A DNA stretch of 64,000 bases from contig MU657165.1 of assembly GCA_026770575.1 (NCBI GenBank), positions 620,228 through 684,227 on the forward strand. The letters run 5' to 3'. The number at the start of each line of letters is the position of its first letter. The stretch's first letter is position 1. Position numbers and translations under genes: made by a program. Positions 601 through 30,882 of this stretch are shown piece by piece. Origin of the DNA: Pelagophyceae sp. CCMP2097. Its lineage: Eukaryota > Sar > Pelagophyceae. The notes under the pieces were generated by a model. That model searched no databases, had not been told where the DNA came from, and saw only the letters and a list, made by a program, of their open reading frames with translations.

Positions 601-1272
601 TTAGTTTAGTAGGAAATCCTTCATCCGGCCCATGGTCTTGGTGCACTTGGTGGCCAGGTTGATGCAGTTGCTGGAGAATTCGATGGCGTGTTCGACGTTG
701 CCGGTACCTTCCTCGATAAGGCCGACGCGGGCGACCGTGACGACGTCACAGAATTTCTCCCCTTCGGGGCCGACATTACCGTCGTGGTTCTGTTTGTTGT
801 GGCCTTTCATGCCGCAGATGCTGCACTTGTTTTTCAGGAAAAAGGCCTTGTCATTGCCCATGAACAAGGCGGCCCAGCCCGGTTTGCCCGCCGAGGTGTG
901 GCCGGTGCGGATCCAATAGTCGATGTGGACGATGAGGCCCACGACGAAGGTGTCCATGGCCGCGCCGACGAGCCTTTTCACGTTATGCTTTATTATTTTC
1001 CAGATGAACTCGCAAAGCAGTGCGACCCCGCCGGTTTGAATGACGGCGGCGAGCTTGAAGCCATCGATAAAGCAGCCGAAGATCGCCTCGCCTAGCTTGA
1101 CAGCCGCGGCGATGGCCTTGTACAGAGACCACGCCAAGATCATCGAGGCGTGGTCCGGCGGACCACGCGTCGGGACAAAAGGCTTGGAAAGGAATCCCTT
1201 GTCAAACGTACCCAACCCGCAACTCAGCTCTTTCGCTTTCGCGATCGCCTCCGTCGATTGGCCACAGCCCAT
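601..1272 (-). CDS. small membrane protein with zinc-knuckle-like motif
   Basis: Unrecognised protein of 223 residues. I chose the ATG at 1272 because it gives an N-terminus MGCGQS, a good N-myristoylation/palmitoylation context; the frame is open upstream to 1497. Residues about 43-120 are hydrophobic and probably include two or three membrane-associated helices. Around residue 150 is CSICGMKGHNKQNH, a CX2CX4HX4H knuckle resembling CCHC knuckles but with His as the last ligand. The antisense strand is also open but lacks any motif. Function is not inferable. Expression is unproven and this could be a remnant of a mobile element, since repeat-like DNA lies just upstream at 1313-1527. Confidence 0.5.
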   Translation of the reverse strand: MGCGQSTEAIAKAKELSCGLGTFDKGFLSKPFVPTRGPPDHASMILAWSLYKAIAAAVKLGEAIFGCFIDGFKLAAVIQTGGVALLCEFIWKIIKHNVKRLVGAAMDTFVVGLIVHIDYWIRTGHTSAGKPGWAALFMGNDKAFFLKNKCSICGMKGHNKQNHDGNVGPEGEKFCDVVTVARVGLIEEGTGNVEHAIEFSSNCINLATKCTKTMGRMKDFLLN

Positions 1273-1312
1273 GCTGTGCGACGAGGTTTCGCAAAGCGTG
1301 GGTCGTGGCGAC

Positions 1313-1387
1313 TGCTTGCTTAAGATCCACTCCGGCGATTCAAAGGACTCCGCACGTGCACTTTGGAGGGCGGATCTTAAGCAAGCA
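1313..1387. repeat. 16-bp perfect inverted repeat (hairpin)
   Basis: Arms 1313-1328 (TGCTTGCTTAAGATCC) and 1372-1387 (its exact reverse complement) are separated by 43 bp. They sit just upstream of the putative start at 1272. The same core occurs at 49355-49370 and again at about 49423 inside an UPF2 intron, so it belongs to a dispersed repeat. Confidence 0.8.
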
Positions 1388-1482
1388 AGAACAGCTGCCG
1401 CTGTAAAGACTAAAGTTTGAACGCAAATACCCAAAATTAGGCAAATTCGAAAATACAGGTTCTGAAACGCGAAGCGTTTTAA

Positions 1483-1527
1483 GGGGATTTGATTCACTAC
1501 TTTACGGGGATTTGATTCACTACTTTC
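1483..1527. repeat. 23-bp direct tandem duplication
   Basis: GGGGATTTGATTCACTACTT occurs twice with a 23-bp period. A related motif (TTTGAGGGGATTT) occurs twice in the UPF2 intron near 49500-49570. Confidence 0.8.
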
Positions 1528-1608
1528 AGTGCCGCGACGCGACGCGCGACGCTGTCTTCGACTGCTGCTCGACGCGTGCTTACGTCGGCTTCGGGGTCCG
1601 GGCCCTCC

Positions 1609-2748
1609 TCACCGATTCTTCTCGAGGTGGAGCGGGGACTGGGCGCTTCGTTGCGGCCTCGCCGGCCTGGGCCGCGGCCGTCGCGCGCGGCCGCCGTCGC
1701 GCGTGCATGCGTAGATGGCGGCCCAGGCCCCGGCGACGAAGACGGCGTAGAGGACCACCGCCGCGCCGACCCACGACGAATCGGCGAGCGTCGAACCGCC
1801 GCCGCGCGGCAGGAGCGCGCTGCAAAGGACAGCGGTCGCGGCGTGCCGAGTCGGCGTAAGCTCACGCACCGTGGGGCGTTGGCGAGGACGCGGCCGTTGG
1901 CGCAGCGCAGGTGGCACATTGCGGCGATGCTGCGCGCGCTCTCGGCCGCGGGCTCGTCGGCGACGCACGCTGTGGTGGGGGCAAGGTCGCGGGAGACGGC
2001 GCAGCTCGGCGCGGGACGCCGCCGCGGTGACCGGTGAGCGTGGCCTTGCAGAGCGCCACTTGCGCTTCGAGCGACGCCGCGTCGCACTCCTGCGGCCGAC
2101 GCTCAAGGCGCAGTGCGCGGCGCGGCGCGCAAACGCACAAAGGCGTACGTCGCCGCGCGCCGCTTCGGCTTGCGTTCCTGGAGCGCGCGTTTCGCGCGTC
2201 GGGCCGTCGGGCGGACGCACCTTGCTCCGCGTGACCGGCTCGCCGTGCTCGTCCTCGTCGGAGGCGCGGAGCACGGGCGTCGCCGCGAAGCGCTCGTAGG
2301 ACGGGCAGTCGAGGAACGAGCAGAAGCTACCACGGCGTTCGCTCCGGCGCGGTGCGTTCGCTCCGGGGCTCCGGGGCGCGACGACGCACTCCCCGAGGCA
2401 GACGCCTTGCCCCGTCGCGTTGGCTGGCGCGATGAGGTCGGCGTGCCGGTGCCTAGGCGGATCATCCCGCTTTCGCGTTTCGGTGGTGCGCGGGGCGCGG
2501 CGGTTTTGCTCGAGGTGGGCGTCGAGGAAGGCTTCGGTTCGGAACTGCTTGCCGCAGGTCTGGCACTTCCAGAGGTTGGCGCGGACGGCCTTTTTGGCGC
2601 GCTCGTGCGCGAGGAAGACGTCGCGGTCCGGGTGCAGGTCGCAGCTCCTCGGCAGCTTCGAACCAAAGTGCGCGTCGCCGGAGAAGAGCGCCTCGCGGAC
2701 CACGCCCCGCGCCACGCGCGACCGCCGCCGGTCGCAGCCGCCCGGCAT
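1609..2748 (-). CDS. C2H2 zinc-finger protein with C-terminal membrane segment
   Basis: Multi-exon gene reading right to left; exon borders only partly resolved. The 5' frame (from 2748) encodes a Cys/His-rich segment and a finger beginning KCQTCGKQF, with His ligands in AHLEQN and, after a likely short intron ending in CCTAG near 2452, HRHADLI. The HxHxDLI.PxNATxxCL arrangement that follows resembles a conserved eukaryotic single-finger family with a C-terminal membrane anchor. Further Cys-rich blocks occur in other frames between 1860 and 2140, implying more introns or indels. Near 1690-1740 the frame encodes a hydrophobic helix (VGAAVVLYAVFVAGAWAAIY), probably a membrane span. Family assignment is moderate, exon structure weak. 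Confidence 0.5.
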   Translation of the reverse strand: MPGGCDRRRSRVARGVVREALFSGDAHFGSKLPRSCDLHPDRDVFLAHERAKKAVRANLWKCQTCGKQFRTEAFLDAHLEQNRRAPRTTETRKRDDPPRHRHADLIAPANATGQGVCLGECVVAPRSPGANAPRRSERRGSFCSFLDCPSYERFAATPVLRASDEDEHGEPVTRSKVRPPDGPTRETRAPGTQAEAARGDVRLCAFARRAAHCALSVGRRSATRRRSKRKWRSARPRSPVTAAASRAELRRLPRPCPHHSVRRRRARGRERAQHRRNVPPALRQRPRPRQRPTVRELTPTRHAATAVLCSALLPRGGGSTLADSSWVGAAVVLYAVFVAGAWAAIYACTRDGGRARRPRPRPARPQRSAQSPLHLEKNR

Positions 2749-2786
2749 GCCAACGCCTCACCGCGCGCGCACCCCAACCTTCGCCA

Positions 2787-3129
2787 AAATATTAAATAAT
2801 TAAATTAAACCGTCTTAAAAAGTCTTTTAAAAGAGCGCGAGAGACCGGGATTCCCGGAGTTTGCCTCGCATCGGACTCGACGCCGACGCCCGGGGCGCTC
2901 GTCGCGAACGGCTCATGGATGGCAGTGCGATTTGAAAAAACGCAAGTTTCAACTCGAATGAGTGGACACGGGTCGGGTCCTCGGTCTGAGTTGAACTTCA
3001 AAACTCTGCTGCAGCTTCCCGTTTCCGAATCGTTCTTCGACGCCGGTCGGACGCGGGTCGTGGCTCGTCGTCGAGCTCGAGGCGTCGAGGCGGAGCGCCG
3101 CGAGGCCGACGCCGCGGGGCTCGAGGCGA
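2787..3129. other. intergenic, AT-rich at left end
   Basis: About 340 bp between two divergently transcribed genes. The first 45 bp are AT-rich (AATATTAAATAATTAAATTA), contrasting with surrounding GC. This is the likely shared promoter region. I see no gene. Confidence 0.5.
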
Positions 3130-5383
3130 ATGGCCGACCTAGCGGCCCTCGAGGCGTATATTGAGGCGAACCGACCCGGCGACGTCGCGGCGCTCCTAGA
3201 CTCGGAGGTCAGACGCCTCGCCGACGTCGCGTCTCTCAAGGAAAGAGGCCTCGCCGAGGCCGAGGCGATGGAGAAAATGCGCCTCGCGGACCTCAAGGCG
3301 TCGCTCGAAGCGAAGCGCCTCGCCGACGAGGAAAAGCGTCTCGCGGACCTCGCGCTCGAGGCGTCGCTCGAGGCAAAACGCCTCGCCAAGGTCGCAGAGG
3401 AAAAGCGCTTCGCCGCGGCGCTCGAGGAAACGCACCTCGCAGACCTCGAGGACCAGGCGCACAGCACAGACGCCATGGACGAGGCGTCAACCGACGATCT
3501 GGAAAGCGTCGACGTCTCGGCCGCGGCCGTCGCTTCCGCCGCGGACGGCGGGGAATTCGGGTGGGGGGGGCGAGACGCGCGCGTCGAAGCGCCAGCGGTT
3601 CACCAGCGCTGCGGGCGGCGCCGCGCCCCCCGCGTCGAGGGTGAAGCCGAAGAAGGCGCTGAAACCGTTTGGGGCGTTCAAGTTGGCTGTCAAGCCGCAG
3701 TGCACCTCGGCGTGCCTGGCGCTGCTCGGCTTGGCGTTGAATGACGACCCGGCGCCGGGCTGGCACCGCGAGGTCGTGCCGCGGAAATGTGAGGCCGCCG
3801 TCGTCGACGTCAGCTACTTTGCGCCCGACGGGACGCGGCTGCGGTCGGGGCCCGACGTGCTGCGCCATATAGAAAAGGCCGGCGCGGACGTGCGGGGGCT
3901 CGCGGCGCAAGAATTTGTGTTCTCCGGGAAGCGGCCGCCGAATGATGTCCTCGAGCGCTGCTGGCGGCTGCCCTCGGAAATGATCAACGCCGAGATGAAG
4001 AAGTGCTGGAACGCGCTCGACGAGGCGGCGCGCGCCGGCTACGCGGCGCCCGCAGGCGACGACGAGGCCGCCGCGCGAGAGAAGCCGGCAAAGTCGCCGA
4101 GGAAGCGAGGGGCATCAGCGCCGCCGTTGGAAGCGACGGCCACAAGACGACGGGGGCGACCTCCGGCGTCGCCATCCTCGGCAGTCGGCGGCGGCTTTTC
4201 GGCAGACGAGGCGGCACCCGGCGGCTTTTCGGCAGACGAGGCGGCACCTCCGGCGCCGGCCCGCGCTCGACGGCACCCGAACATGCGCCTCTTCGTCGCC
4301 GCAGTCGACGAGACAGACGACGACGACGACGTGCCGACGCCGCCGGCCCCGCGTCGGGCCGGTCGCACGCGCCCCCCAGCCGTCCGCTACACAGACGGCG
4401 ACGGCCCCGACTCTGCTCCGGCGTCGCCATCCTCGGCAGTCGGCGGCGGCTTTTCGGCAGACGAGGCTGCACTACCGGCGCCGGCCCGCGCTCGACGGCA
4501 CCCGAACATGCGCCTCTTCGTCGCCGCAGTCGACGAGACAGACGACGACGACGACGTGCCGACGCCGCCGGCCCCGCGTCGGGCCGGTCGCACGCGCCCC
4601 CCAGCCGTCCGCTACACAGACGGCGACGGCCCCGACTCTGCGTGGGCTGACTCCGCGTGGACCGACGGTCAAGCGACTGTCGCGGCCACCGCTGTCGACG
4701 CCCACGCCGCGCCCGACACCGCCTACACTCTTGTCGCGACGCACGACGCGATCGTCGCCGCCGGCCTGGCGGAGCCCCGTGGCGCGGCGTCCGCTGTGCT
4801 GCAGATCGTTTCGCCGAGTGCCGTCGAGCAAGTCGAGCATATCGCTTCGCCGAGCGTTCGGCGCGCCGAGTCGCTGTTCTCCCCCTGCGGCGCAACCGGT
4901 GAGGTGCCTTTTTGAGCCCTCGTCTGCAAGACGCCAAAGTGACCTGCGTCGGAACATTGCCGCGGCGCAGGCGACACGGGCGCCGGCCACTCGGTGCAGA
5001 CGTTCCACGTCGGCGAGGTGCGAATAGCGTGTGGGTCCCCCGCGCCGAGGACGCGCTGCGCGCAGGTCGACTGGGGCGACGCCGTCTCTCCGTCGTGGAT
5101 CGCGGGCCTCTTGGTGCTGCCGCCCGGCGAGGTCACGTTGACTGCGGCGGGCCGGAGCGCGCACGTCTTCTTCGTCCACAGCGGCGCGCTCGAGCTCACC
5201 TTTGGATCGGCGGCGGATGCGGGCGTCTTCTGCGCCGCGCCACCGAGCCACTTCCGCCTCAACGCGCGCGACCAGTTCCACGTCCCCGCGGGCAACGCTT
5301 TCCAACTCAAGAACCATTCTGCGACCACGCCAGCAACCCTCTTCTGCGCCCTCATCAAGCCCCTCATCAAGCCCCTCGCCTGA
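3130..5383 (+). CDS. CENP-C/Mif2-like cupin protein with MBD-like domain
   Basis: Likely inner-kinetochore protein. Order: charged helical segment (residues about 1-110, repeated EAKRLAD-type units); basic SKRQR; methyl-CpG-binding-like domain (about 205-270: GWHREVVPRK, then VDVSYFAPDGT, LRSGPDVLRHIEK, FVFSGKRPP); two near-identical segments each holding RRAGRTRPPAVRY, resembling the CENP-C nucleosome-binding motif (RRSxRTRxxPxxYW) but lacking Trp; and a C-terminal cupin (about 605-725: LLVLPPGEVTL, HVFFVHSGALEL, FHVPAGNAFQLKNHS) matching the Mif2/CENP-C dimerisation fold. Exons 3130-4898 and 4971-5383 splice in phase (GTGAGG...GCAG). A +1 frame offset lies in the G8 run at 3563-3570; one fewer G would join the helical part to the MBD part. 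That may be a sequence error, or the N-terminal part may be a separate gene. The cupin and MBD calls are strong, the motif call moderate. Confidence 0.72.
4161..4641 (+). repeat. in-frame tandem duplication, about 250/224-bp units
   Basis: Two nearly identical DNA copies within the CENP-C-like gene, about 4161-4417 and 4418-4641. The first also contains a nested 30-bp duplication encoding GGFSADEAAP. Each copy encodes an acidic stretch (VDETDDDDDVPTPP) followed by RRAGRTRPP. Near identity at silent positions indicates a recent duplication. Confidence 0.9.
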
Positions 5384-5537
5384 GCCGCCCCTTTGTGCCC
5401 ATGCTCCATGGAGCACCCGCGCCACGGGCACTCGGCGGACGCTTCGACGACGGGCGGCGCCGATGCATAACCGGATCGAGAGTATGCTCTGGGCACGGGG
5501 CAAGAGCCCGCTCTGAGCCGCGCGCGCGCGCACAGCT

Positions 5538-6081
5538 GGATTACGGTTGTTTGCCAGGGTAGGTACGACAGTTTTCGCAAATGGGCTTTTGACGTACCCG
5601 CGTACCCCCACCTTTCGTTGCCGCCGCTCCCCGGCGACGTACCCACGTACCCCGACGCGCCTTGCTTACCTTGACGCTGATTTGAAGGAATATATCAAAT
5701 CTTACGAGAGGCTTCGACGAAGGGAGCTCTGCGGGCACTGATTTCCGAGCACTAGCTCGGTGCACCCCGACAGGGCCATCGGACCGAAGCGGCGAGCCCA
5801 CAGGCGCGAGCAATCGAACGCTCCGAGCGCGGTCCGCAGCATGGCCACCCACTGGGAAGGCACCCGTTGTGCGTGCTCCGGGTTTTCCACACTTCGCCGA
5901 AGCGATTTTTTCGGGACTCGAGCGGGCGATTTTTTCGGGGACGAGCATCTGTCGGGGGCCGACGTACCCACGTACCCCCAGGGTCCCTCGTCGTTGCCGG
6001 CCGTCGACGTACCCACGTACCCTCCCAAATAACGTACTCACCTAAAACTGTGGTACCTACCCTGGCAAACAACCGTAATCC
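5538..6081. mobile_element. MITE-like non-autonomous DNA transposon
   Basis: A 544-bp segment bounded by 38-bp terminal inverted repeats (5538-5575 and 6044-6081) starting GGATTACGGTTGTTTGCCAG, with a single mismatch. Subterminal copies of GACGTACCCACGTACCC occur twice near each end (around 5591-5655 and 5960-6020), partly symmetric. No open frame encodes a transposase. No clear target-site duplication is visible: flanks are CAGCT on the left and TGCAC on the right. It sits between the CENP-C-like and ArfGAP genes. Confidence 0.8.
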
Positions 6082-6180
6082 TGCACGCCTCCTGGGATGG
6101 CGCGGACGGGTTTTCTCCAGTGGACCAAATTCCCGTTCTCGGGAGAGAGAGTTGCGGCCCGCTCGGCAGCGAAAGCGTCC

Positions 6181-7725
6181 ATGAGTAGTCGAGGCGCACC
6201 GGCGGCGCCGCGCGCGGCGCGCAAGGGCGACTCGCCCGCCGTGCTGCGGCAGATCCTGCTCGAGCTCATGAAGTGCGTTTTAGCACGCTTTTGCGCTTGC
6301 GCCGAGTCTGCGCCGGCGCGAGGCAACGCCCCAGGCTCCCTGAAAACAACACGTGCGCCGACTGCCCGTGCAAGCAGCCGAGGTGGGCGTCTTCCACCAT
6401 CGGCGTCTTTGTTTGCATCCAATGCTCTGGCATCCACCGCAATCTCGGCACGCACGTCTCCTTCGTCCGTGAGTCGCCGACCAACACCCCGCCGCCCCGA
6501 ACGACGCGAGTAGGCTCCGTCAACCTCGACGACTGGAAGCCGGAGCAGGTGATGCGCATGCAGCTCTGGGGCAACAAAAACGCGCAGGCGTTTTTTGAAG
6601 CAGAGGTGCGCGCGTCCGCCGGCCGCCAATGCTTCGACGAGGCGGGGTCCTGTACGCGGCTTTCCGCAGGTGCCGCGCGACTACCAGGTGCCGAAGGACG
6701 GCGCGTCGGTGCAGCACGTCACGCGTTGGATTCGGGACAAATACGAGCACTCCAAGTTCACGCCGCGCGGCGACGGCGGCGCGGGCGACCCGCGGCGCGG
6801 CGCGGCGCCCGCTGCCGCCGGCGCCGCCGCCGAGGCGCCCGCGCCGGTCGCGGCGCCGGCGCCCGCGCCGACGAAGGCGACGCCGTCCAAGGCGCCAAAG
6901 GCGGCGTTCGTTTCGGCGGCCAAGGTCGCCGCGCCGGCGCGGGCGGCCGCACCCGTCGTCGACCTGCTGGGCGGCTGGGACTCGGACCCCGTGGCCGTCG
7001 TGGCGCCGCAGGCGCAGCAGGGCTTTGGCGTTTCGGTGCCCGCCGCGGCGCCGCAGCAGTTGGCGCCGGCCCAGGGCTTCGACGCGCAGTTTGGTTCCAT
7101 GGGCCTCGGCCAGCCGGCGGCGCCGCACGCGAGCAAAGCGGCGGACATCATGTCCATGTTCTCGTCGCAGCCCACGTACGGCCAGCCGCAGGGCCAGGGC
7201 CTGACGCAGTCGTTCACGCCGCTTTTGCAGCAAAAGGCGCCGCAGCAGCAGCAGTTCTACGGCAATGGCGCGCCCGCGATGATGCAGCCCATGCAGCCCG
7301 CGATGATGATGCAGCAGGGCATGCCGCAGGGCATGCCGCAGGGCATGCCGCAGGGCATGCCGCAGGGCATGCCGCAGGGCATGCCAGGCATGCACATGGG
7401 TATGCCGCAGGGCATGCCGCAGGGCTACGGCGGCGGGATGATGATGCCGCCGCCGCAGCAGATGATGCAGCAGCAGATGATGCAGCAGCACATGGGCCAG
7501 GGCATGCCGCAGGGCATGCCGCAGGGCATGGGCTGGCAGCAGCCGCCGCCGCCGCCGCAGGGCATGATGCAGCAGGGCATGATGCAGCAGGGCATGATGC
7601 AGCAGGGCATGCATCAGCGCATGCCGCCCAACCCAAACCAGCAGTTCCAGCAGTTCCAGCAACCAGGTGAGTCGCGGGCCGCAGCGAGGTGCCGCTTGAC
7701 GGCCGCCCGCTTAGGCTTCCGCTAA
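6181..7725 (+). CDS. ArfGAP-domain protein (SMAP/AGD5 type)
   Basis: GTPase-activating protein for Arf GTPases in vesicle traffic. Exons 6181-6272, 6335-6468, 6514-6605, 6670-7666 and 7715-7725 join in frame to give 441 residues. The ArfGAP zinc finger is intact: CADCPCKQPRW, then CIQCSGIHRNLG with the catalytic-finger Arg of the IHRNLG motif, followed by SVNLDDWKPEQ and a helical end WIRDKYEHSKF, matching the SMAP/AGD5 subgroup. The remainder is low-complexity Ala/Pro then Gln/Met-rich, including a run of MPQG units (7318-7380), as is common in coat-binding tails. The start at 6181 is preferred; an in-frame ATG at 6097 would add 28 residues overlapping the transposon border. The last exon is only 11 nt. 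Confidence 0.88.
7310..7437 (+). repeat. 12-bp minisatellite coding MPQG units
   Basis: CAGGGCATGCCG repeated in frame within the ArfGAP gene, encoding Met-Pro-Gln-Gly units. Further copies lie at 7500-7530, and ATGATGCAGCAGGGC units at 7560-7610. Confidence 0.9.
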
Positions 7726-8145
7726 ACTGGCCGCCGCGATAACCACATCTTTGTTCGCCGCCGCCGCCGCGACCGCGCCGCCGCCGAGCGGACCTCCACC
7801 GGCGCGCGCGCCGCGCCGGGCGCCGCCTCTTTCCTGCGACCGCGGGCGACGGGCGCGGTGCCGCCGCGAGCGCACTCTCCCCCATCTCTCTCGACCTCGC
7901 CACATCCTCGGCGCGGTTCCGCAGAGTGGATTGCCTAAAGAGGCGGCAACATCACACCCGACTCTGGCCCGGAACACGACCGGAACACGAAACCGAGTGA
8001 TCGCCGAAAATTGCTAAGAGCGCGCGGCCGGCGCCGGCTCAGGCTCGATCGGCGGATCCGCGGATCATTCTCCTCGTGCGGACGCGCGAATCTCGCTCGG
8101 GAGTGCGCCGCGGCGGGCCCTTGGAGCGCACCGCTTCCGGCAGCG
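7726..8145. other. intergenic, no gene seen
   Basis: About 420 bp between two genes on the same strand. It is GC-rich with short spurious frames. It should hold the ArfGAP 3' end and the TMEM184 promoter; no discrete motif stands out. Confidence 0.5.
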
Positions 8146-21440: not shown

Positions 21441-24020
21441 ATGGAGCGGGCGCTGGGCCTGTGCAGCGCTTCTCTGCGGCGCGTGCTCGACGCGGCGCTC
21501 GCGTCGCCCCGCGGCGTCACCGCCGCGGCGGGCGCGGCGCTGCTCGCGCCGCGCACGCTCGACGACTTCCGCGGCGTCGTCGCCGTCGCCGACGAGCTGC
21601 GATTTCGCGCCAACGGCGACGTCGTCACGTTCGTGGTGAACCGAAATGTCAACTTTACGAACTCTTGCACGAAGCGCTGCGGCTTTTGCGCCTTTTCCCG
21701 CACGGGCGTCGACGACGAGGCCTACTTCCTCGGGACGGCCGAAGTCGTGCGCCGCGCAACCGAGGCCGCGACGCTCGGGGCCACCGAGGTCTGCATCCAG
21801 GCAGGGCTTCCCGCAATCAACGAGCGCGGCGAGAAGTGGCGCGCCGAAGACTACGCCTCCCTCGCCGCCGCCGTCAAGGCCGCCGTCCCGGAGGTGCACC
21901 TCCACGCGTTTTCGCCCGAGGAGGTGGTGCACGGCGCGCGCCAGAGCCGCGCTTCGATCCGCGACGTGCTCCGGATGCTCCGCGACGCCGGCGTCGACTC
22001 TTTACCGGGCACGTCGGCGGAGATCCTCGACGACGGCGTGCGGGACATGCTCGCCAAAGGCCGCCTCTCCGCGAAAGAGTGGGTCGACGTGGTCTCGACG
22101 GCGCACGGCCTTGGATTCAAAACGACTTCGACGTTGATGTACGGCCACGTGCGTCTCTTTCGTCCTCCGTGAGATTTCTCATCGGTCCTTAGGTGGAGAC
22201 GCCTTTGGAGATTGCGGCGCACCTCGAGTTGCTTCGTCGAATCCAGCTGGAGACGGGCGGGTTTACGGAGTTCGTGCCGCTGCCGTTCATTGCCGCAAAC
22301 GCGCCAATGTTCAAGGCGGCGACCGCAAACGGTGCAAGTCCCAAACTCGGCGGCCGCGTGCTCCGCGGCGGGCCGTCGTTCCGGGAGACGGTGCTGGTGC
22401 ACGCCGTTTCTCGCATCATGCTCGACGGCGCCATCGGAAACATCCAGGCGTCGTGGCCGAAGATGGGCCTCGGCGCCGCGTCGGCGCTCCTCCGCGCGGG
22501 CGTGAATGACCTTGGAGGGGTGCTCATGAACGAGAGCATCTCGACGGCCGCGGGCGCGCGATTCGGCCAAAAGGCCACGCCCGGTGACTTCCGCGGCGCA
22601 ACCGACCGCGCGGGCCGCGTACTCCGCCAGAGGTCGACGCTCTACGGCCGCGTCGAGACGCCGGTCAGCGACGCGGGCATCGAACGGACCGACTTTGGTT
22701 CGTTCCACGGCCTCGTCTCCAGTCCGGACTGGCGCGCCAAAGGCCTGCTCGCCAAAAGCCAAAAGAGGCGCAACGATTCGCCGCGGCACTCTTCGTCGGC
22801 CGCCGCTCTCGACATACCTTTGGACCCTGCTTTCGACCGGCCTTTACAAAAAGTGGTGACGTACAGCCCTTCGCACACTATCATTCCCACGTACGAATGC
22901 TACAATCGATGCACGTACTGCAACTTCCGTGCGAACCCGACGACGAAGCCAAAGTACATTTCAGACGCCCATCTCGACGCGGAGCTCGCCGACGCGAAGC
23001 GGCGCGGCGCGTGCGAGATTCTGATAATGGCCGGCGAGGCTCGGCCGGGCACTGCTCGGCGAGCCGACTGGCTGCGGCGCATCCTGCAAGTGTGCGAGGC
23101 CGCGCTCGCCGCCGGGTTCCTGCCGCACACCAACGTCGGCCCGCTCGCGCTCGAGGAGATGGCCGCGGTGCGCGAGGTGAACGCGTCCATGGGTTTGATG
23201 CTCGAGCAAGTCACCCCCGCGCTCAGCGCCGCGGGCGGCGTGCACGCGCGCGCGCCGTCCAAGGCCGCGAACATCCGCTTGGAGCAGCTCGACATGGCCG
23301 GCCGCCTGAAAATTCCGTTCACAACGGCGAGTCTGTCCTTTGGGCGCCTCACTGGCTCGCCCCCCTCTGGGGATTTGACGATTGGCGAAGGCCATCGCCA
23401 CACTCTGCTTCAAACGGGTGGAGACCGCAGCCTGAACAAACGGCCACCACCCCCGGCACGCGCCTCTCTAGGGCCTCCTCTGCGGCGTCGGCGAGACGCG
23501 CGCCGACCGCCTCGAGTCGCTCCGGGCCATCGCCGAGGCGCACGAGAGACACGGCCACATCCAAGAGGTTTGTGAGTGCCGGCTGCGGCAGGCGGCGGGA
23601 CCGGCCCCCTCGTAGGTCATCCTGCAGCCGTTTTCGCCGGGCGACCGGCAGGCGTACCGCGGGCCTGACGGCGACGAGGCGCGCTTCGACGTGGCCGAGG
23701 ACCTGCCCGCGCTCGTCTCCGCCGCGCGCAAACTACTGCCTTCAGACGTGTCGATACAGGTCCCTCCGAACCTCGCACAAATCGACTTGCTCCAGAAGTG
23801 CCTCGAGGCTGGCGCCGACGACGTGGGCGGTTTATCGGCGACGGACCACGTGAACCCAACGTACGCCTTCCCCGACGTGCAAACAGACCTCGCCGAAGCC
23901 GTGAGGCACCTCGGCCGCGACTTGCGGCGGCGCGCGCCCGTGCACGACCGATTCGTCGACTGGATGCCCGAAAGGCCGCGACGAGTCTACGACGAACACT
24001 GGGCCCACCTCCATTCCTAA
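21441..24020 (+). CDS. FO synthase, CofH-CofG fusion (radical SAM)
   Basis: Makes 8-hydroxy-5-deazaflavin (FO) from tyrosine and a ribityl-uracil; algae use FO as photolyase antenna, and it is the F420 precursor. Exons 21441-22148, 22193-23326, 23472-23567 and 23616-24020 join to 780 residues. The N-half is CofH-like with a radical-SAM cluster [12 protein letters not shown]; the C-half is CofG-like with [13 protein letters not shown]. Supporting motifs are [36 protein letters not shown] and [16 protein letters not shown]. Order is CofH then CofG, opposite to my recollection of actinobacterial FbiC. Intron 2 starts GCGAGT; only that GC donor restores [14 protein letters not shown]. The gene converges on the next one, with the two stop codons overlapping. 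Confidence 0.95.
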
Positions 24021-24886
24021 ATTGATCTCGTCGTCGAGAGGCGGTCCGGCGGCGGCACCGTTGTGCGGCGCATTGTCGCGGTGTCCCTCCCGGTCTTGTC
24101 GCAGAAGTGCGTCTCGGATCTTGGGAAGGCGCCCGACGGCGCGGGCCTGCTGAGAAAGGCGGCGAGCGGCGTCCAAGTGAGCCCCGCGGAGATGTTGACG
24201 ACGAGGAGCTTGTGTTTGGGCACTTGGGCGAGGACGCGCCGCACGCCGCGGTGGTACGCGTGCGCGGCCTGTTCGAGGTCAGGGCAGACGACGCCGTACG
24301 TGAGGCACCTCGACGTCTTGACGTAGCGGTTGACGTCCAGCGTGCCGTTCGCATTCCGCGGGCACTTGGGCGTCCCGTCGGCGTACTCGCGGTGGTAGCC
24401 GGCACGGACGGTAAGGATGATTTTCGCGTTTGGGTAGCGGCAGAGCGCTCTAGGCCAGACGCCCCCCATGGGATCGTCGAACCAGGCGCCGCTGCGCCCC
24501 AGCACGGCCAAACCCTCCTCCTCGAGGCCGCGCCCGAGCCACTTCGACTCGTGGCACGTGGGCACTCCCAAAGCGCGCACGGCCGCGGCCACGGACCGCG
24601 TCGCCGTGCCGCCAAGGCCCGCGCCCAAGACCAGCGGCAGCGGCGACGTCTCGCCGCGCAACGGGCACGTCGCGTCCTCCTACAGGCGCCGTTTTCGCAC
24701 GACTCGGGACGAGCCCGGACGCACTTGGGCGAGGTGAAGAAGGCCCTTCTTTTCGAGCCAGGTGTAGCAAGTTGCGTCGAGCCTCGGCTCGAGCTTCGGC
24801 TCGGGCGCGCCGCCGGCGTGGGCCTCGATGCGCCGCGCCGAAGATACCCACGCGGCTGCGGCGGCCAGCAGCCACCGACACGGCAT
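24017..24886 (-). CDS. sulfotransferase-like (Sulfotransfer_4 type)
   Basis: Two exons, 24886-24725 and 24679-24017, join in phase (GTGCGT...TGTAG) to about 274 residues. The N-terminus is a signal anchor or peptide (MPCRWLLAAAAAWVSSA). The P-loop-like PAPS segment is LVLGAGLGGTATRSVAAAV, where the family usually has GxGRTGTxSL. Further landmarks are LGVPTCHESKWL, YPNAKIILTVRAGYHREY and KLLVVNISAGLTWTPLAAFL followed by FPRSE, the conserved end of this group. Probably a lumenal or secreted enzyme. The Gly-Gly in place of Arg-Thr in the P-loop is unusual, so activity is uncertain. The 3' end overlaps the FO synthase stop by 4 bp. Confidence 0.7.
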
Positions 24887-28131: not shown

Positions 28132-30882
28132 TCAGGAGGAGACCTGGTCGATGAGTCCCTTGACGTTGGATGCGGCGACGACGTCGTACATGGCGCCTTC
28201 GAGCGGGATGCCCTCCTTGGAGAAGATTTTTTGGCGGTCGAGGATGAGGTCCAACTCGGCGTCGGTCAAGTCGGAGGCGTCGGCGGCCGAGTCCTGGGCG
28301 GCTAGTCTAAGAGAAATGTTGACGTCGTCAGTGAGCAAAGCGCGGAGCGAGTCGACGGTGAGGTCGCCTCTCGACCGGCGGCCCGCCTTGTTGTAGTCGC
28401 CGCCGGTGACGGCCATTCGCTCCAGCTTCTTCTTCGCAATCTGCTTCTCCATCATGGCAATCTCCACTGAGCCTGAAGTCAAAAAGCGGAAGACTAAGAC
28501 GGGCCGCGTCTGACCGATGCGGTGGCACCGGTCCATGGCCTGAGAGTCCTGGTGCGGGTTCCAATCCGAGTCGAAGAGGATGCACGTGTCCGCCGAAGCC
28601 AGGTTGATGCCCAGGCCGCCTATGGGCAGGATTCGAAAAAGGATTCGAAAAAGGATTTGAAGAAGGATTTGAAAAAGGATTTGAAAAGCAAGACGCACCG
28701 GCGCGCGTCGAGAGCATGAATATAAACAGGTCGTTTTCGCCCTTTGGCTCGGCGTTGAACTCGTCGATCTGCCGCTGCCGCTCCGCCAGCTTCACGCTCC
28801 CGTCGATGCCTAGGCGAGCGGGGTGATGCCGTCTCGATTTCCCTTTCTCTTGCCGGTTTTCCTTTCTGGCACGGCCTCGTTACGGAAGTACTTCCAGCCC
28901 TTGCCTCGGAGGTAGTCCTCGAGGATGTTCAAGAGCTCGGTCATCTGCGAAAACAGCAGGACCTTGTGCTTGCCCGCCTTTAAGCGCGGGAGCATGCGCT
29001 CCAGCAGTCTGAACTTGCCCGACGCGTTGACCAAAGAGAGCGGGTTGGCGACGCCGACGAACTCGCCGTTGGCGTCTGTGGGTTCGCCGAAGAGGAAGGG
29101 GTGGTTTGCGTTTTTTCGTTGATTCATCAAGAGGTTCATCTCAGAGACATCCTTGGCAGTCATCTGCACGCCGTGCTTCTCCAGCTCCGACCGCAGACGG
29201 TTCTGCAGCAAGAGCTCCTCGTACGTCCGCTGCAGCGGCGTCATGGCGGCGTAGACGACGATCTCCTGCTTGGGGGGCAGCAGGCCCGCCAGGACGTCGG
29301 ACTTTACGCGGCGCAGCAAAAACGGCCGGAGGATTTCATGCAGCTTGGTCACGATGCGGTCTTTCTGCTGCTCGCCCAGAATGTCGTCGACCTGCGTCTC
29401 CTGACCGATATTTCGGAAGCCGAACCAGGACTGGAAGACGCGCAAGTCGTCGAAGATCTGCGGGTTGACAAAGTTGAGCAAAGACCTAGTTGCGCAAAGG
29501 TGGACTTCCGTTTCCGCAAAGGATATTCCCAGGATATTCCCAGGATATTCCCAGGAGCGCCTCAGATCTTAAAGTGCGACGCCATCCGAATCCGAGGCGC
29601 GAATTCGAGACGCACCAGAGCTCCTCGAGCGTGTTCTGGATGGGCGTGCCCGAGAGGAGGAGGCGGTTCTCGGAGTTGAGCTTCTTCAGCTCCCGGACGA
29701 GGCGGCAGTCTCGGTTCTTCACCCGTTGGCCCTCGTCGATGACCAGATATTTGAAGTGGAAGTGCGCCAGCGCGGCGCGGTCGACGATGCACATCTCAAA
29801 CGACGTGATGATGACGGGGAAGTTCTCCTCCTGCGAGTGGCGGACCTGCAACGAGTCGGCCCGCATTTTCTTGCGGTCCTCTTTCGACCCATGGTACAAC
29901 ACGACTCGGATCGACGGCGTCCACTTGCGGAACTCCTTGATCCAGTTGGGCAGCGTCGCCAGCGGCGCCGCGATGATGATCGGGCCCTTGACCGACTTTT
30001 CACGAATGTGCGCCACCAGCGCAATGACCTGAATCGTCTTCCCGAGGCCCATCTCGTCTGCCAGAATCCCGCTCAGCCCGTTCTCGTAAAGAGTCGCCAG
30101 CCAGCGCAGGCCCTCGACCTGGTAGCCCTTGAGCTCGCCGCCGACCATGGCCACCGGTTGCTGCACCAAAGAAGTTTTTGCTTTCGCCTGCTTGCCAGTC
30201 GCCTCCCCGATCATCCCCTCGACCTTAGCCCGCTTCGCGCGGCCCTCCTCCGACTCGTCGCCCTTGCGCTTGCCGCCGGGAGCCTCGTCGGCGGCCTAGA
30301 CACGACGCCTCTCGCGCACCCCGTTCAAAAAGGCCTCGTCGGCGAGCCCTCCCCTCGGAGGCCCCTCGGAGGCCCCGGCGGTTGGTGAGACGCGCCTTTT
30401 GCTCGCCCAGCTGCGAGTTTACGATGAACTGGCTGTACCTGCGGCGGCGCGCGGTATTGAAACGCGCGCCCACGGCGGGCCGGCGGCCGACGCACTGCTC
30501 GGCCTTTGCGAGGAGCGTGTCGAGCTGCTGCTTCTTGGCGTCTTCCGACGCGTTGCGGTCGATGAGTAGCGCCGCCTGGTCGCCCTACGCGCGGGCGGCG
30601 CCGTCCACGCAGCCGACGCCGTTTCGAGCCGGCAGGCCACGGCGGGTGCCGCGGCCCGGAATAGCGTCGGGCGCACCTGCTGCGACGCGGCGGCTGCGCG
30701 CAGCAGCGTCGGCGCCACGGCGGCGTCCGCCGACGGGTCCTAGCACTTGCGTGAGGCGACCCTCGCCAAAGGCCCGGTGCGCAAAGACGCACGGCGTTCT
30801 GGTCCTCGGCGTCCAGCAGCGCCGCGACGCGCGCCTCCTCCAGCTCGTCGTCGTCCACCGGTTGCGCTTCCGGGGCGCTCAT
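28132..30882 (-). CDS. SNF2-family remodeler, HELLS/DDM1 (LSH) type
   Basis: ATP-dependent chromatin remodeler; LSH/DDM1 proteins support DNA methylation and heterochromatin. Resolved exons (right to left): 30295-29616, 29485-28884, 28809-28699 and 28619-28132; upstream exons reach [20 protein letters not shown] at 30882. Motifs: [18 protein letters not shown], Walker A DEMGLGKT, motif [30 protein letters not shown], then [45 protein letters not shown] and [12 protein letters not shown]. The spacing and the [16 protein letters not shown] text fit LSH better than ISWI or CHD1. Motif II has Gln where DEGH or DEAH is usual. Introns carry minisatellites. Confidence 0.9.
28627..28690. repeat. 12-bp minisatellite in HELLS/DDM1 intron
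   Basis: Five copies of GGATT(T/C)GAAAAA fill most of intron 28620-28698. Confidence 0.9.
29519..29555. repeat. 11-bp minisatellite in HELLS/DDM1 intron
   Basis: Three copies of GGATATTCCCA in intron 29486-29615. Confidence 0.9.

Follow-up and report, generated by a model that had tools for sequence, protein, structure and literature searches.

Within the 64,000-nucleotide (nt) stretch analyzed here (contig MU657165.1 of assembly GCA_026770575.1, positions 620,228 to 684,227 of the forward strand; hereafter the window), the stramenopile alga Pelagophyceae sp. CCMP2097 carries a gene whose predicted product joins a methyl-CpG-binding domain (MBD) to a cupin of the CENP-C type. Window positions 3130-5383 constitute a single gene with four exons, the translation of which is identical letter for letter to the public protein M885DRAFT_610075 (684 aa). 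The same protein was retrieved when the joined exons 2-4 served as a query in a protein search (97% identity, 96% of the query covered). The earlier note on this DNA had set the limits at 3130 and 5383 and postulated an in-phase intron at 4899-4970, both of which agree with the public gene model. The following segments reproduce that model exactly:

3130-3560, plus strand: exon 1, Ala/Glu/Arg-rich, with a repetitive start (MADLAALEAY...)
3561-3639, plus strand: first intron of the public model (79 nt, GTGGGG..GTCGAG)
3640-4898, plus strand: exon 2, a single open frame with the MBD, an AT-hook core and a linker
4899-4970, plus strand: intron 2, 72 nt, phase 1, in frame, with a stop in its frame
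4971-5017, plus strand: exon 3 of the public model
5018-5065, plus strand: third intron of the public model (48 nt, phase 0), across which the frame stays open
5066-5383, plus strand: exon 4, with the CENP-C-type cupin (PF11699 at about 5102-5344) and the stop codon

The presence of MBD and cupin in one protein, as claimed earlier, agrees with this four-exon model (itself predicted from sequence), and the precomputed Pfam list of M885DRAFT_610075 names both families. An apparent frame change at a run of G is accounted for by intron 1 of the public model, which falls there, so that a sequencing error near 3563 is unneeded. Since its frame holds a stop, intron 2 has to be spliced out; this requirement, together with the predicted nature of the exon joins, would suit a wrong model that has fused two neighboring genes, one with the MBD and one with the cupin. 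Such an arrangement is nevertheless very improbable. The cupin frame (4943-5383) contains no Met, and exon 2 contains none upstream of or within the MBD; with ATG starts, neither half is therefore an open reading frame by itself, the cupin must be spliced to upstream sequence, and the exon with the MBD to one that precedes it. The public model agrees with a single gene, and the introns ahead of the cupin match in place the candidate introns of an orthodox CENP-C gene on the same contig, described below (72 versus 75 nt after ..AACCG, and 48 versus 48 nt before Val-Asp codons). The introns of the orthodox gene are inferred ones, each selected for its position from four GT..AG pairs, and the frame is open through both.

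The C-terminus had been read as a Mif2/CENP-C cupin, an assignment upheld by Pfam and by one of two structural comparisons. PF11699 scores 32.8 bits on the exon (5066-5380) and 31.4 bits on 4943-5380 (cut-off 29), and 25.7 bits, under the cut-off, on the full 684-residue protein. With a cupin model of middling confidence (55.7), Foldseek ranked the cupin of fission yeast Cnp3 first of 1661 (E 7.8e-4); a second structural comparison did not single out CENP-C. Searches of PDB sequences returned no CENP-C among the 4 matches of the cupin frame (E<=1) or the 23 of the whole protein (E<=10), while a two-cupin profile run against 177,635 distinct PDB sequences gave two matches at E<=10, both of them CENP-C and weak (E 0.45 and 0.52). 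The cupins of this gene and of the orthodox one are identical at 47 of 106 positions (E 8e-19). Their nonsynonymous (dN) and synonymous (dS) divergences are 0.38 and 0.84 (NG86), a ratio of about 0.46 that fits restraint. PMC9252888 and PMC12724597 both present the cupin of CENP-C as a dimerization domain; the latter adds that binding of the CENH3 chaperone Cal1 depends on it in Drosophila.

The orthodox gene lies about 80 kb downstream (C2:700001-709500, at about 3709-6120 of that stretch). It encodes an intact CENP-C motif, RRSRRRKFPPMKFW, within GLRRSRRRKFPPMKFWKNERIIY, followed by a cupin that scores 36.9 bits with PF11699; a laxer search placed two matches in one 314-codon frame of the gene (36.2 bits together). 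The motif fits the CENP-C pattern RR..[RK]..[YF]W, which is absent from the 684 residues of M885DRAFT_610075. The start of the orthodox protein, PLGRRTVGAVRDVEPADDGFEDIDAFW, has no Pfam match; we take it to resemble the Mis12-binding start of Mif2/CENP-C. In exon 1 of M885DRAFT_610075 no such start was recognized by Pfam, a search of low power that also gives no match at the start of the orthodox gene, and no Pfam family exceeded its cut-off there. The linker before intron 2 shares the residues RAESL with the orthodox gene at a score of chance level (1005 of 5000 shuffles; 1083 of 5000 with exon 3 added). In the present assembly, the acidic repeat region of the orthodox gene contains a duplication that is accompanied by a frame change.

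Genome searches covered 66,184,329 bases in 638 contigs. A sole CENP-C-type gene, as the one PF11699 place at E<=0.001 might suggest, was rejected, since there are four places at E<=10, two of them in the orthodox gene. The remaining place, on C78 (23.3 bits, below the cut-off), looks from its sequence like a metabolic cupin. PF01429, the MBD family, was found at three places, none of them in the orthodox CENP-C gene. As a separate observation, one frame on C331 combines a bromodomain with an MBD-like stretch, the latter over the cut-off in one search and just under it in another.

According to the earlier note, M885DRAFT_610075 would be the CENP-C of this organism, a kinetochore protein bearing an MBD. 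The above-cut-off match of its exon to PF11699 and the occurrence of both domains in one annotated protein are in line with that identity. It is, however, largely refuted by the orthodox gene and thus scarcely credible: it is that gene that has the intact motif and scores higher in the cupin (36.9 versus 32.8 bits), and M885DRAFT_610075 lacks an intact motif. Because the orthodox gene has both, the gene at 3130-5383 is, to judge from its sequence, a CENP-C paralog that has kept the cupin and lacks an intact CENP-C motif. The fusion is real and unusual; its parts had been named correctly, but they form a CENP-C paralog instead of CENP-C.

The front end of the protein is 46% identical to that of a sister gene in the same genome (C313, at about 22393-24144). 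It contains the following features:

3644-3733, plus strand: candidate helix 1 of a split HMG box, from the alignment to the sister gene
3755-3928, plus strand: methyl-CpG-binding domain (PF01429), from the Pfam match and Foldseek
3965-4045, plus strand: possible second part of the split HMG box, from the alignment to the sister gene and helices in a low-confidence model
4151-4162, plus strand: AT-hook core RGRP, from the sequence
4253-4416, plus strand: direct duplication, copy 1 (spacing 225 nt), with the Arg-rich stretches RARRHPNMRLF and RRAGRTRPPAVRYT
4478-4641, plus strand: direct duplication, copy 2, 164 nt identical to copy 1

The MBD-like domain, likewise proposed before, is recognized by PF01429 on window positions 3566-4900 (E 6.3e-8, 32.6 bits, cut-off 21). 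Although the structure model of the HMG-MBD part is of low confidence (mean pLDDT 47.5), rows 1-39 of the best 50 Foldseek matches of the MBD part are MBD-fold structures (MBD2, MBD3, MBD4, MeCP2, MBD1, MBD6, the BAZ2 TAM domain, and SETDB2), with a best E of 1.3e-3 and none at or below 0.001. Two Arg columns, one Asp column and a Tyr column of the domain have roles in methyl-CpG recognition. In the alignment to MBD2, the Arg and Asp columns are kept and the Tyr is replaced by Ser; with this substitution, selectivity for methyl-CpG may at most be predicted.

In the sister gene, an HMG box apparently encloses the MBD. When its two flanks are joined without the MBD, they score 23.7 bits with HMG_box (cut-off 25.4; positions 1-63 of 69) and 22.9 bits with HMG_box_2 (cut-off 22.4); the second flank alone scores 14.1 and 16.3 bits, respectively, and the first flank alone gives no match. 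M885DRAFT_610075 matches no HMG family, whether whole or with the MBD cut out and the flanks joined, and a genome search with HMG_box found nine places that include neither its gene nor the sister gene. Helices predicted, with low confidence, at model residues 9-28 (before the MBD) and 101-108 and 112-135 (after it) are compatible with a split-HMG plan. The two Arg-rich stretches of each duplicated unit resemble a CENP-C motif that lacks the Trp; this resemblance was discounted, as the best stretches score 21 against the motif of the orthodox gene, a value reached by 151 of 5000 shuffles. The gene is best read as a chimera in which the cupin end of a duplicated CENP-C is attached to a C313-like HMG/MBD front end, both kinds of gene also occurring separately in the genome.

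Several features of this front end could also point to a little-used or decaying duplicate: the joined HMG flanks match no HMG family, whereas those of the sister lie near one cut-off and above another, the Tyr of the MBD is replaced by Ser, the internal duplication is very similar (identical over 164 nt), and the front-end dN/dS is 0.48/0.68. Yet 684 codons stay open across four exons and the cupins diverge at the restrained ratio given above, which makes decay rather improbable.

The genome encodes further components that bear on methylation and centromeres. A SNF2 gene of the HELLS/DDM1 type, already noticed in the window, lies in pieces at about 28273-30295 on the minus strand; its best PDB match is lymphoid-specific helicase (E 2.7e-65), followed by DDM1 (9.9e-59). 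An open frame of 2324 codons (838-7812 of its stretch) matches DNA methylase (54.4 bits) and SNF2 (57.8 bits), with a helicase C part at 19.2 bits, below the cut-off of 23.5, and has a make-up of the DNMT5 type. DNMT5a is reported from pelagophytes, and in one of them, Aureococcus, DNMT5 accompanies heavy linker methylation (PMC9998398). The CpG observed/expected ratio of 1.36 in the window indicates no depletion, by which methylation is neither shown nor excluded. A divergent, CENH3-like histone H3 gene with several exons, an altered start and the end RIRGVLRE was read by eye on the minus strand of C27, and Ndc80 has one match, on C142.

Positions 5538-6081, just downstream of the gene, hold an element some 540 bases long that has terminal inverted repeats. 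Its 29-base end occurs in 43 genome copies at <=2 mismatches (23 forward and 20 reverse; none in the control), frequently in pairs that face each other and span about 520-610 bases end to end. The sequence at 6189-7670 looks ArfGAP-like, as read by eye from a zinc-finger-like stretch followed by a Met/Gln-rich repeat.

With CENP-C, Mif2 and Cnp3, M885DRAFT_610075 shares the C-terminal cupin; it differs from them in the MBD, in the absence of an intact CENP-C motif and of a recognized Mis12-binding start, and in the separate orthodox CENP-C gene of its genome. With MBD2, MBD3 and MeCP2 it shares the MBD family match, including the Arg and Asp columns conserved relative to MBD2, whereas its MBD is joined to a cupin and has Ser for Tyr, and that of the sister seemingly lies inside an HMG box. 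PMC11354804 ascribes AT-hooks also to MeCP2, comparable to the AT-hook core found here. Drosophila likewise retains two CENP-C-type genes per genome, Cenp-C1 and Cenp-C2; those paralogs are said to keep the key motifs (PMC12724597), whereas the algal paralog has retained nothing but the cupin, joined to a front end of another kind. In the one literature collection searched, and with the searches made there, no description of a CENP-C with an MBD was found. Protein database searches returned only M885DRAFT_610075 itself (from a capped set of 7992 scored sequences at E<=1, from 944 at E<=10 and from 5159 at E<=0.1); as they also missed the sister gene of the same genome, they do not prove that relatives are absent elsewhere.

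In the proposed mechanism, the MBD and the AT-hook core, perhaps together with an eroded HMG box, would bind DNA, and the cupin would dimerize. The protein would thereby serve as an adaptor that connects DNA with a cupin partner, either its own copy or the orthodox CENP-C. As it lacks an intact CENH3-binding CENP-C motif and a recognized Mis12-binding start, the role of an adaptor is more likely for it than that of a kinetochore foundation. With CENP-C as the partner, methylated or CpG-rich DNA would be brought to the kinetochore; with itself as the partner, two DNA sites would be bridged. We consider it fairly probable that the chimera acts as a cupin-dimerizing DNA reader with either of these partners.

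This reading overlaps with a narrower one, differing in partner and place, in which the protein would read ordinary or silent chromatin as a homodimer, with the cupin acting only as a dimerizer and with no role at the centromere. The missing CENP-C motif and unrecognized Mis12-binding start fit such a homodimer, as do the presence of an orthodox CENP-C for the kinetochore job and that of the DNMT5-type enzyme, given the heavy linker methylation that accompanies DNMT5 in Aureococcus (PMC9998398). On the other side stands the 47/106 identity kept with the CENP-C cupin, which makes shared partners plausible; a strict homodimer is a sizeable possibility that falls short of being probable. For the reader with either partner, pairing with the orthodox CENP-C can be proposed tentatively, and action mainly apart from centromeres is conceivable to a similar, less than even degree. 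The most specific version seems unlikely: a CENP-C paralog that pairs with CENP-C via its cupin and the MBD of which would connect CpG-methylated DNA, maintained by the DNMT5-type enzyme, with the inner kinetochore, such that methylation would help to place or hold the centromere. A tie between methylated DNA and centromere identity is offered as a hypothesis.

With an MBD joined to the CENP-C dimerization domain alongside an orthodox CENP-C, a direct part of methylation in centromere identity becomes testable in one organism. If the protein acts elsewhere than at centromeres, the CENP-C cupin would be shown to be a reused module.
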